A DNA stretch of 64,000 bases from Nocardioides marinus (GTDB lineage: Bacteria; Pseudomonadota; Alphaproteobacteria; Rhodobacterales; Rhodobacteraceae), in the NCBI GenBank assembly GCA_019801415.1, contig JAHVJD010000004.1, positions 62,001 through 126,000 of the forward strand, given 5' to 3'. The notes under the pieces were generated by a model. The model worked only from the letters and a program-made list of their open reading frames with translations, made no database searches and had not been told where the DNA came from. The stretch's first letter is position 1. Each line of letters begins with the position of its first letter. Below are positions 3,715 through 11,719 of this stretch, one piece after another. The position numbers and the translations under genes are program-made.

Positions 3715-3728
3715 TTGACCCAGATCAA
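3715..3728 (+). promoter_or_regulatory. FNR/FnrL box before fnrL
   Basis: TTGACCCAGATCAA differs by one base from the TTGAT-N4-ATCAA consensus. It ends only 13 nt before the fnrL ATG. A class II FNR promoter would then start transcription inside the gene, so the position fits autorepression better than activation. Confidence 0.75.
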
Positions 3729-8577: not shown

Positions 8578-9443
8578 GCAAGAAAGCACAGAAATTCGAA
8601 GGCGATCCAAATACCACCGGCCACGAGTGGGACGGGATCGAGGAATTCGACAACCCGATGCCGCGCTGGTGGCTGTGGACCTTCTACGCCACCATCATCT
8701 GGGGGCTGCTCTACACCGTGGCCTATCCGGCCTGGCCGCTGATCAATGGCGCTACGGCCGGGGTGCTGGGCTGGTCGACGCGCGCAGATGTCGCCGCCGA
8801 AATCGCCGCGGTCGAGGAAGCCAACGCGCCGATGAATGCGCGGCTGGAAGCGGCCGATCTGACGGCCATCGCCAGCGACGGCGAGTTGGGGCCCTATGCG
8901 GTCTCCGCCGGTTCCGCCGTGTTCAAGACTTGGTGCGCGCAGTGTCATGGCTCGGGCGCGGCGGGGGCCAAGGGCTATCCGAACCTGCTTGATGACGACT
9001 GGCTGTGGGGCGGGTCCATGGAGGACATCCATGTGACCGTTGCCCATGGTATCCGCAACGAGGACAGCGACGAGGCGCGCTATTCCGAGATGCCCGCCTT
9101 CGGCCGCGACGAACTGCTGGCAAAGGAAGAGATCTCGCAGGTGGTCAATTTCGTCATGTCGCTGTCGGGGGAGCCGCAGGATGTATCCGAGGTTGCTGCC
9201 GGGGCAGAAGTCTTTGCGGAGAATTGTGCCTCCTGTCATGGCGCCGACGGCACTGGCGACCGCAGCCAGGGCGCGCCGAACCTGGCGGATGCGATCTGGC
9301 TCTATGGTGGCGACTACGCGACCCTGACCGAGACCGTGGCAAATTCCCGCTATGGCGTGATGCCAGCCTGGAACACCCGGCTGACCGAGGCGCAGATCCG
9401 CGCGGTGTCAGCCTATGTGCATCAGCTGGGCGGCGGCGAGTAG
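8574..9443 (+). CDS. ccoP: cbb3 oxidase dihaem cytochrome c subunit CcoP
   Basis: A 289-residue subunit that accepts electrons from soluble or membrane cytochromes. It has the family's N-terminal cytoplasmic stretch and membrane helix (about residues 32-60), then two cytochrome c domains with haem motifs CAQCH near residue 121 and CASCH near residue 218. It is the last gene of the operon and is followed 25 nt later by a strong terminator. Confidence 0.97.
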
Positions 9444-9532: not shown

Positions 9533-10225
9533 TCACCCCATGGAGGTCGCGGTCCCGCGCAGATGTGCGCGTCGGCTGTCGCTCCAGGTGCTCCAGGCGC
9601 TGATCCCGCCCCACAGGGCCACGTAGAAGGCGCCGGTGGCCAAAACCAACTCGCCGGGGAAGGGGCCGATGTCGGCACGGTTGACGGCCTGTTCCAGCGA
9701 GGTCACGGCGGTGGGATGCACCGCGATCTTGCCGGCATAGGCAAGGGTCTGGATCAGCAGGATCCAGAAATAGTTGCGCCGGATCCGCCGCCCGATCGCC
9801 GTCATCTGGCTGACGTGGTATTCGGGCCGCAGGTAGTCTCGGGCCAGAACAGCTTGCCAGTTCTCCTCCAGATGCAGGTCGCCTTCGGTCAGCATCGGGG
9901 CATAGAAATGCGTCTCCATCCAGCGGGCGCGGGCGCGAAATACGTTGAAATAGCGGTAGCGCCGCGCTTCCAGCATCAGGAAGAAGATGATCAGCACCCC
10001 GACCAGGATCAGCGGCAGCGGCGAGGCTTCGGGCGAGGAAAAGGAGATCGACAGCGCCACCCCCAGCGTCACCACCGCCCAGTTGGTGGTGGTGTCCAGC
10101 CGGGTGCGCCAGATCGTGCTGCGGTAGATTTCGCCCCGGTAGAGATGCGCCAGTGCGCCCACCTCTGCCGCGCTCAGCGGTGCGCGGTGGGTGTCCGGAT
10201 GCGGTGCCGTTTTTCTTGTGCCCAT
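9533..10225 (-). CDS. DUF2270 family membrane protein
   Basis: A 230-residue integral membrane protein matching the DUF2270 family of predicted membrane proteins. Its function is unknown. An N-terminal soluble stretch (about 1-45, including a LAHLYRGEIYRS segment) leads into two close membrane helices (about 48-85). A conserved charged central region with RRYRYFNVFRARARWMETHFYAPML follows, and then two C-terminal helices. The gene sits between the cbb3 structural and assembly operons but on the opposite strand, with the FNR box at 10288 about 63 bp upstream of its start. A link to respiration is inferred from position only. Confidence 0.8.
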   Translation of the reverse strand: MGTRKTAPHPDTHRAPLSAAEVGALAHLYRGEIYRSTIWRTRLDTTTNWAVVTLGVALSISFSSPEASPLPLILVGVLIIFFLMLEARRYRYFNVFRARARWMETHFYAPMLTEGDLHLEENWQAVLARDYLRPEYHVSQMTAIGRRIRRNYFWILLIQTLAYAGKIAVHPTAVTSLEQAVNRADIGPFPGELVLATGAFYVALWGGISAWSTWSDSRRAHLRGTATSMG

Positions 10226-10287
10226 GATTTGAGCGTAGGTGCCTTGCCCGGGCAGGGCAAGTTTTTTACCCGGTTCGGGCAGGCGGT

Positions 10288-10301
10288 TTGATCAGGATCA
10301 A
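10288..10301 (+). promoter_or_regulatory. FNR/FnrL box before a predicted small RNA
   Basis: TTGATCAGGATCAA is a perfect TTGAT-N4-ATCAA palindrome. No protein gene starts within 400 bp on the plus strand. A TACAGG hexamer at 10324-10329 would place a start site at 10336, exactly 41.5 nt from the box centre, the classical class II spacing. The divergent DUF2270 gene is the alternative target. Confidence 0.8.
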
Positions 10302-10335
10302 ATCGCGCGGGCAGCCGGGGCGGTACAGGTGATCG

Positions 10336-10469
10336 AGACACCTGATTGCCGCCCCTCCATCCCCCTTCAGGGGTGGCATGTGATCCCGCCCGGCAGACGT
10401 GCAGGCCCGGCGGGCGCTGCGCCGGCTTTCCGATCTGTTCGCGCGTTTCTGGGAAAGCCGGCGCTTTTT
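10336..10469 (+). ncRNA. Predicted FnrL-controlled small RNA of about 134 nt
   Basis: No small-RNA family is recognised; this call rests on signals and structure. A perfect FNR box with class II spacing and a TACAGG -10 element predict a start near 10336. The first stem-loop pairs GCCGCCCC (10348-10355) with GGGGTGGC (10370-10377), exposing a 14-nt C/U-rich loop that resembles an anti-Shine-Dalgarno seed. A second stem pairs CCCGCC (10385-10390) with GGCGGG (10409-10414). The 3' end is a perfect 13-bp stem, GCGCCGGCTTTCC with GGAAAGCCGGCGC, followed by T5. No convincing reading frame or ribosome site lies inside. Oxygen-controlled small RNAs of similar size, such as PcrZ, are known in Rhodobacter. 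Homology to them is not claimed. Confidence 0.6.
10419..10469 (+). terminator. Rho-independent terminator of the predicted small RNA
   Basis: A perfect 13-bp stem (10419-10431 with 10452-10464) and a 20-nt loop are followed by TTTTT at 10465-10469. No protein-coding gene ends upstream on this strand; the nearest is ccoP, which has its own terminator at 9468. Confidence 0.85.
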
Positions 10470-10685
10470 GCGTTTGCCGCGTGGGGCTTGGAGGGCGCGG
10501 CGGCAGTGCGGGACCTGTCGTTACCGGCTTTGGTCTGGGGTGGCGTGATGCGGGTCGCGGTGAAGAGGCTTTGGGCAAGAATACCGATCATGTGTGGGCC
10601 CTCCTTGGGCAGATGGCTGGGTCTTTCGACCCTTGTACCCTTGCGTGGAGGCGCGATTCCTGCCAGTTAAGAAAAATCAGTATCT

Positions 10686-10700
10686 GTAAGTCTGGCTTAC
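10686..10700 (+). promoter_or_regulatory. Dyad GTAAG-N5-CTTAC just before the LysR gene
   Basis: Perfect 5-bp arms GTAAG and CTTAC are separated by 5 nt and end 2 nt before the ATG. It could be a LysR autoregulatory half-site or an RNA hairpin covering the translation start. There is no clear ribosome site here. Confidence 0.35.
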
Positions 10701-10702
10701 AT

Positions 10703-11581
10703 ATGGATTGGAAGGTCATGCCGCCTATGGCGGGGCTGCGCGCGTTCTGTGCCTTTGCCGAAAGCGGCAATCTGGTGCAGGCGGGACAGGCGTTGAATGT
10801 CAGCCACGCTGCCATCAGCCAGCAGTTGCGGGCGCTGGAAGCGCATCTGGGGGTCGCGCTGGTGGACCGCTCCGGGCGGTCTCTGGCGCTGACCGCGGAA
10901 GGTGAACATCTGGCGCGCGCGCTTTTGCTGGGTTTTGGCGCGATGCAGGCGGCCGTGCAGGAGTTGACCGGTGCGAGCGCCGCGCGGCCCCTGCATGTGA
11001 CCTGCACCCCCAGTTTCGCGGCGCAATGGCTGGTGCCGCGATTGCCGGGCTTTCAGGGCGAACACCCCGAGGTCGAGCTGATGCTGGACCCGACCGGCAC
11101 GCTGGTCGAACTGAAGCCGGGCGGCGTCGAGATCGCGTTGCGATACGGTGATGGCCAGTGGCCGGGGCTGGAGGCGGAGTTGCTGCTGATCTCTCCGATG
11201 GTGGTGGTGGCGGCGCCGCAGCTGCTGGCGGGGCGTCGGGTCGATACTGCGGCGGATCTGCTGGACCTGCCTTGGCTCGAAGAGCTGGGCACCAATGAGG
11301 CAAGTCGGTGGTTCCGCTCGCAAGGGGTCGAGGACAGTCTGCGTGGCCCGCGCACCCGGTTGCCCGGCAACCTGCTGATGCAGGCCGTTCGGGCCGGGCA
11401 GGGGGTGGCGGTCAGCGTGCAGAACTTCGTCGAGGAAGACCTTGCCGAGGGGCGCCTGCTGGCCCTGTTCACCGAAGCGGAGGGCAGCGGCTATCACATC
11501 GTCACGCGCCCCGGTGTTCTGCGCCCGGAGGCCCGCGCCTTCATCGCGTGGTTGCGGCGTGAACGGGGGCGGGCGCAATAG
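10703..11581 (+). CDS. LysR-family transcriptional regulator (GcvA-like)
   Basis: A 292-residue regulator with an N-terminal winged helix (about residues 8-66, including SHAAISQQLRALEAHLGVALVDR) and a C-terminal periplasmic-binding-protein-like effector domain (about 95-285). The domain order and the RPLHVTCTPSFAAQWLVPRLPGF stretch resemble the GcvA/AmpR subgroup. The ATG at 10703 is used because the open frame upstream runs through the small RNA and its terminator. The target is unknown; ccoG lies 198 bp downstream on the same strand but has its own FNR box. Confidence 0.87.
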   Translation: MDWKVMPPMAGLRAFCAFAESGNLVQAGQALNVSHAAISQQLRALEAHLGVALVDRSGRSLALTAEGEHLARALLLGFGAMQAAVQELTGASAARPLHVTCTPSFAAQWLVPRLPGFQGEHPEVELMLDPTGTLVELKPGGVEIALRYGDGQWPGLEAELLLISPMVVVAAPQLLAGRRVDTAADLLDLPWLEELGTNEASRWFRSQGVEDSLRGPRTRLPGNLLMQAVRAGQGVAVSVQNFVEEDLAEGRLLALFTEAEGSGYHIVTRPGVLRPEARAFIAWLRRERGRAQ

Positions 11582-11705: not shown

Positions 11706-11719
11706 TTGATCCACGTCAA
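11706..11719 (+). promoter_or_regulatory. FNR/FnrL box upstream of ccoG
   Basis: TTGATCCACGTCAA matches TTGAT-N4-ATCAA at all but one position (GTCAA for ATCAA). It lies 60 nt before the GTG start of ccoG, leaving room for a class II promoter starting near 11754. Confidence 0.82.

Follow-up and report, generated by a model that had tools for sequence, protein, structure and literature searches.

The question raised by this locus is what kind of element lies between ccoNOQP and ccoG of Nocardioides marinus, where a small RNA gene had been proposed from the bare sequence, and how such an RNA might be connected with the cbb3 oxidase encoded around it. The window analysed is a stretch of 64,000 nt (contig JAHVJD010000004.1, positions 62,001 to 126,000) from a genome of 3.9 Mb, and the genus is represented by 21 genomes. 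In the window, ccoNOQP ends at 9443. From there to ccoG follow the minus-strand gene of a DUF2270 membrane protein (9533..10225; Pfam PF10028, 7e-68), which separates ccoP from the predicted RNA gene, an intergenic stretch of 477 nt, and a plus-strand gene for a LysR-type regulator (10703..11581; Pfam PF00126/PF03466). The latter occupies the place of hvrB in a published RNA motif (see below) but is assigned by Pfam only and may or may not be HvrB. A palindrome, TGTAAG-TCTGG-CTTACA (10685-10701), is located immediately 5' of the LysR start within a stretch (10637-10703) with matches in some members of the genus, and is likely to be a LysR autoregulatory site. At the other end of the intergenic stretch, a terminator-like hairpin with T6 (10240-10267, plus strand) precedes the predicted RNA gene and perhaps stops read-through from ccoNOQP across DUF2270.

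The sequence elements on which the original prediction was built are all present as described: an FNR/FnrL box of perfect match, TTGATCAGGATCAA (10288..10301, plus strand), a -10-like hexamer TACAGG at class II distance (10324..10329, plus strand), a predicted transcription start at A10336, and a 13-bp terminator followed by T5, which together delimit a predicted FnrL-controlled RNA of 134 nt (10336..10469, plus strand). The spacing of 41.5 nt between the box centre and the predicted start likewise agrees with a class II promoter. FNR boxes are enriched in the window, with two perfect ones and six with at most one mismatch, compared to 0.84 expected from shuffled sequences; ccoG has a separate box with one mismatch (11706..11719, plus strand), and another one with one mismatch about 14 nt 5' of the likely fnrL start (3715-3728) suggests autoregulation of fnrL. 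In every one of the 21 genomes of the genus, a box with no more than one mismatch is located at -178 to -182, counted from the end of the terminator, the distance thus being constant within 4 nt. The letters of TACAGG are not conserved, and all 21 genomes keep the TA of this hexamer at the distance of a class II promoter. A simple sigma-70/terminator scanner reported neither the promoter nor the terminator of the RNA gene, because the promoter has no -35 element of the sigma-70 kind and the terminator loop exceeds the scanner limit of 8.

The strongest conservation is seen in the terminator hairpin (10419-10464, with T5 extending to 10469; plus strand), which resembles the published motif HRC-8-4 and exposes the invariant loop core CTGTTCGCGCGTTTC (10435..10449, plus strand). 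The 3' part of the segment (10383-10469) is matched in 21 of 21 genus genomes with 83-87% identity in the 20 others, the window representing a divergent member whose terminator stem carries C-G where the 20 others carry U-A, a compensatory difference. A covariance model built from the RNA of the genus, searched against 394 genomes of the family, matched 140 places in 139 genomes, nearly all of different genera; two places without the loop (L203, L208) were left out, leaving 138 loci, two of them from the genus of the window. In these, the 15-nt terminator loop CUGUUCGCGCGUUUC is exact in 133 cases and differs by a single change in the other five. The exact 15-mer occurs in 173 of the 394 family genomes (reversed control, 5 of 394). 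Of 385 genomes sampled across the class, 15 contain it, including four from the family; the 11 genomes outside the family compare, by simple count, to four for the reversed control. The exact loop is tied to the oxidase, being present in 171 of the 355 family genomes that encode CcoO, compared to 2 of 39 without (overlap of the two lists taken by eye), and absent from 184 of the CcoO-bearing ones. Among 20 loop-less relatives hand-picked from these 184, mostly with strong CcoO matches, near-variants were recognised in four, one with a single mismatch 635 nt behind ccoP (L370) and three directly behind ccoP (L377, L379, L380), while the other 16 contain ordinary hairpins or none recognised. Together with the five single changes, the near-variants narrow the core of the loop to about GUUCGCG.

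The stem behaves differently from the loop. When the 138 hairpins are aligned, 95.2% of the stem cells are paired, compared to 37-53% when the alignment is slid, and both-side changes are found in 353 cells, compared to 115 in shuffles; 12 of the 13 pairs show at least one such change, a value that as a lone count is little above the shuffles (10.8). Compensatory stem changes among relatives, the kind of evidence the original prediction had called for, are therefore present in the terminator stem across the 138 family loci, and the combination of an exact loop and a covarying stem indicates that the loop is kept as sequence and the stem as structure. The excess of G-U over A-C cells in the stem (102 vs 24) further indicates that the hairpin is read from the same strand as ccoP. 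Among the matches listed (at least 80 loci), loop hairpins adjoin cco genes in Paracoccus yeei, Rhodobacter viridis, Roseovarius and Shimia, and likewise in Thalassovita, Gemmobacter, Salipiger and others, and those in clearly other groups were without an adjoining cco gene. The hairpin is also observed in tandem or double copies with the same loop, 91 to 286 nt apart (L238, L254, L259, G206, L257/L278). Three copies are present in G206 (G206:C42:10850-11047), Pseudoruegeria aquimaris is among the genomes with multiple copies, Shimia thalassica carries two on one contig, one of them adjoining DUF2270, and L031 has a second loop copy inside DUF2270.

A view on the genomic context of the 138 loci shows two arrangements. 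In 85 of them the hairpin is located directly behind ccoP, i.e., in the 3' UTR (loop no more than 105 nt past the point where the CcoP match ends, a cut chosen after the distances had been seen), and in the remaining 53 it is displaced, as in the window. Tails of at least 5 T in 9 nt follow the hairpin in 33 of the 85 and 25 of the 53 loci, respectively. The occurrence of FNR boxes tracks this division: a strict box (at most one mismatch, between -200 and -60) is present at none of the 85 3'-UTR loci and at 40 of the 53 displaced ones (Fisher p 9e-24), and a relaxed box (TTGAY-N4-RTCAA, between -250 and -50; a definition chosen after degenerate boxes had been seen) at none of the 85 and at 51 of the 53 (p 7e-36), both p values ignoring kinship. 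The two displaced loci without even a relaxed box are L059 and L161, the latter, with a distance of 138 nt, being an exception to the rule under the 105-nt cut. Kinship was considered by a CcoP tree of 125 of the 138 loci, built by a quick method with a simple model and evaluated with the relaxed definition, on which the arrangement changes about 25 times; in eight supported independent pairs the box follows the arrangement in 7.8 on average and the opposite is never observed (sign test p 0.008). From a tree of CcoG (104 loci) only three supported pairs are obtained, which is too few for a test, with agreement in all or nearly all pairings. This alternation of the hairpin between a 3' UTR and a promoter of its own, with the box tracking the arrangement, is new here.

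When the 40 displaced promoters with a strict box, two of which come from the genus of the window, are aligned on this box, they share an A at position 2 of the -10 element in 34 cases, a T at position 6 in 22 and an A at +1 in 26, and this common -10 at class II distance provides independent support for the promoter call of the original prediction. FnrL control and a non-coding transcript, both predicted, are thus well supported by comparison, and it is from comparing genomes that the conservation, the strand read, the promoter architecture and the tie to cco genes and FNR boxes are deduced. As for the 3'-UTR loci, binding of FnrL at ccoNOQP is recorded for R. sphaeroides (PMC4263372), and further studies describe an approximately 1.5-fold activation of ccoNOQP and repression of ccoGHIS by FnrL in R. 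capsulatus (PMC4634722) and induction of fixNOQPGHIS by FnrL in Dinoroseobacter shibae (PMC5398030). Since ccoNOQP is FnrL-activated in relatives, a hairpin at its 3' end should be under FnrL control as well, and it appears that this control of the RNA is retained whether it is an mRNA tail or a gene of its own.

The 5' half of the predicted RNA is less uniform. The segment 10336-10469 folds with -65.9 kcal/mol (z -3.0; a value equalled by 1 of 200 shuffles) into a first hairpin of 10 bp (10347..10378, plus strand), a GC-rich second hairpin (10380..10417, plus strand) containing the genus-invariant stretch ACGTGCAGGC, and the terminator hairpin. In the genus consensus, three of nine pairs of the first hairpin are changed on both sides and none of the second. 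The C/U-rich loop of the first hairpin, given as 14 nt in the original prediction, comprises 12 nt in the fold (10357-10368), and its proposed role in pairing with Shine-Dalgarno sequences is not supported as the main function of the RNA: CCUCC is found in the 5' half of 7 of 85 3'-UTR loci, compared to 6.1 expected, and it is the terminator loop that is almost invariant. At displaced loci CCUCC is more frequent (12 of 40, compared to 3.6 expected with kinship ignored), and a C/U-rich first loop is visible, by uncounted inspection, across much of the genus alignment, so the motif may be an addition in some of the independent RNA genes. No Rfam family matched the RNA segment at family thresholds, and the best hit at a loose threshold, P10 at 10224-10300, lies outside the RNA (E 0.016, 20.4 bits vs 37 required). 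A small protein, read in a frame through the loop as SDLFARF that is open in the window, is rejected on the whole: a one-base insertion upstream of the hairpin breaks this frame in L019 and L021, and the 133 unchanged loops are unchanged at the third codon positions of the frame as well. Three of the five single loop changes are silent in this frame, which makes the argument from loop changes weak when taken by itself. On the minus strand, a 74-aa reading frame at 10367-10591 shows a strong Shine-Dalgarno sequence by eye and no Pfam match.

The reading which we prefer, and consider rather probable, is that the segment represents an FnrL-controlled small RNA acting in trans via its terminator loop and tied to the FnrL/cbb3 response, and that it is probably switched on at low oxygen. 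Under this condition, FnrL would bind to the box at -41.5 and start an RNA of about 134 nt, with the HRC-8-4 terminator as its end. The majority of the relatives examined have this hairpin at the 3' end of the FnrL-activated ccoNOQP mRNA, from which it would be released as a 3'-UTR RNA, and where DNA has come between ccoP and the hairpin, the latter has a predicted FnrL promoter of its own, so that its supply would stay tied to FnrL. The exposed 15-nt terminator loop would then serve as the contact site of an RNA forming a companion arm of the FnrL/cbb3 response. From the conserved features we infer the transcript itself, its release from the 3' UTR, its action in trans and the existence of a partner for the loop. 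More tentatively, we consider it possible, although somewhat doubtful in its full extent, that the hairpin has switched repeatedly between the tail of the cbb3 mRNA and a gene of its own, always under FnrL, with the loop being read by a dedicated partner (a protein, a ligand or a set of mRNAs) that couples oxidase supply to another process. Should the preferred reading be correct, an RNA arm belongs to the FnrL control of cbb3 respiration in roughly half of the family genomes that were sampled and carry cco genes (exact loop in 171 of 355). The loci also provide a natural series for the step from a 3'-UTR RNA to a free-standing small RNA gene, or for the opposite step, with an unchanged regulator.

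The partner of the loop is where this reading meets its most serious rival. The exact 12-mer complement of the loop was found elsewhere at 10 places in 12 genomes, as often as with the reversed control (also 10), and no consistent base-pairing target emerged from the few genes and patterns searched. The ccoG mRNA was rejected as a target. The mean longest complement at its starts is 6.72 nt, compared to 5.80 nt for shuffled loops, and at least 9 nt in 21 of 115 cases, but this excess looks like protein coding: it is mostly due to CGCGCGAAC at about codon 10 (16 of 115), inside the protein motif AREP, and the match does not differ between 116 loop-bearing and 12 loop-less genomes (p 0.47, the latter being few); the ccoG of the window itself is complementary to the loop over just 3 nt. 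The aa3 oxidase, considered because FnrL is described to repress it in Dinoroseobacter (PMC5398030), is unsupported as a target, as the duplex energies at ctaC and ctaD are no better than with shuffled loops (28 genomes each), the longest exact complements being slightly longer (6.5 vs 6.2 and 6.9 vs 6.0, respectively). LysR starts are slightly above shuffles (5.88 vs 5.22; 58 loci), those of ccoO and ccoP are not. A gene-start pattern searched in 39 genomes hit 38 places, compared to 13 with the reversed pattern, which is a poor control because reversal breaks ATG and codons; the 38 include the element itself (G359), and the 30 loci inspected show one protein twice, presumably a dehydratase, and yield no target that could be named. 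Two weak leads, both in coding sequence, come from the genus. Codons 14-18 of prkA (L091:1455-1469 and orthologues) contain a 15-mer complement with one G-U pair in 12 of 21 genomes, the 11 inspected ones representing one gene (PrkA in G000), which may reflect coding constraint. The DUF2270 mRNA start contains a 10-nt complement (GCGCGAACAG) in 10 of 21 genomes, reaching 15 nt in L019 and L021 (around 1338-1352) and being absent from the window.

Fifteen invariant nucleotides exceed the usual need of a seed and would equally suit the binding of a protein or a ligand. Because no convincing target was found, a protein partner must be taken seriously, the loop being a site for an RNA-binding protein and the RNA a sponge, scaffold or stability handle without mRNA pairing. 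We consider this version unlikely as compared to the preferred one, as it comes without a candidate protein, the target searches covered few genes and patterns, and the gene-start pattern gave 38 hits vs 13, albeit with the poor control mentioned. Less likely still is a terminator-embedded riboswitch or attenuator, in which a ligand or HvrB on the loop would let transcription pass into the LysR gene (hvrB) or ccoG. The aptamer-like conservation of the loop would suit it, and so would the nearest downstream gene in 54 of the 138 loci, which codes for a LysR-type regulator with no FNR box in between (54 of 54; 234 nt from the terminator end in the window), so that attenuation at these 54 loci is possible. 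A general attenuator is disfavored by the 69 loci with ccoG as the next gene, since 62 of the 63 within 900 nt have a separate TTGAY-N4-RTCAA box between hairpin and ccoG, by four loci where a DUF2270 gene in the opposite orientation comes next and five where LysR is the nearest upstream gene, and by the many hairpins without a good T tract. That nothing but a small RNA would explain the promoter-terminator pair, as originally stated, is in any case too strong, because the hairpin matches HRC-8-4, whose authors speculated on a terminator-embedded riboswitch or on binding of HvrB, according to the text consulted (PMC8632094).

It is very improbable that the hairpin is a plain terminator of ccoNOQP, or a stabiliser of its 3' end, which insertions have left behind. 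Its good stem and its position directly behind ccoP at the 3'-UTR loci would agree with this, but displaced copies keep both the loop and an FNR promoter, several loop-less relatives use ordinary small-loop hairpins behind ccoP, and, to our knowledge, loops of terminators are not normally conserved, let alone exact in almost all loci. Practically no weight is left for the FNR box serving the divergent DUF2270 gene (start on the minus strand, 63 nt from the box) without any plus-strand RNA, because minus-strand DUF2270 is the nearest upstream gene in only 6 of the 53 displaced loci, and the 21 genus genomes have a conserved -10 on the plus strand and no common hexamer at that distance on the minus strand.

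The preferred reading, a trans-acting FnrL-controlled small RNA, may be compared to several known systems. FnrS of Escherichia coli is a small RNA that is activated by FNR and has a promoter and a terminator to itself, and the predicted RNA would work alike, a class II FNR promoter, a predicted short non-coding RNA and a terminator being found here as well; the likeness is one of description. The hairpin loops of the CcsR (cuckoo) RNAs are C/U-rich and carry an anti-Shine-Dalgarno motif, whereas the terminator loop of the present RNA has no such motif. The arrangement of the 85 loci, on the other hand, resembles RNAs of the PcrX and CcsR1-4 type from R. sphaeroides, which are described as 3'-UTR-derived and released from mRNA (PMC8307010, PMC8625941). 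PcrZ of Rhodobacter sphaeroides, a small RNA active at low oxygen with FnrL among its controllers, as far as described in PMC8307010 and PMC4263372, is similar by description alone and differs by acting on the photosynthesis genes puc2A and bchN. No report of an FnrL-driven RNA at the cco locus was found in the parts of the literature searched, and no mention of cco in the parts of PMC4809877 and PMC5107571 searched for it; the RNA may still be an unnamed entry in a published small RNA list.

The closest counterpart is HRC-8-4, described in 2021, as far as the consulted parts of that report go, as restricted to Rhodobacterales, located between ccoNOQP and ccoGHIS, and consisting of a terminator-like stem with a conserved tip, often with hvrB of the LysR family immediately downstream (PMC8632094). 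The terminator hairpin studied here is equated with it by position, stem and the description of the tip. The hairpin of the window is located between ccoP and ccoG and forms an intrinsic-terminator stem with a conserved tip, and a LysR-type gene follows downstream in the window as at 54 of the 138 loci, being the nearest upstream gene at five. As published, in the parts consulted, HRC-8-4 is a riboswitch-like candidate, for which no FNR promoter, no alternation between 3' UTR and own promoter and no small RNA are named. The comparison given here argues against this first reading as a riboswitch and provides an orphan RNA motif with a role that can be tested.
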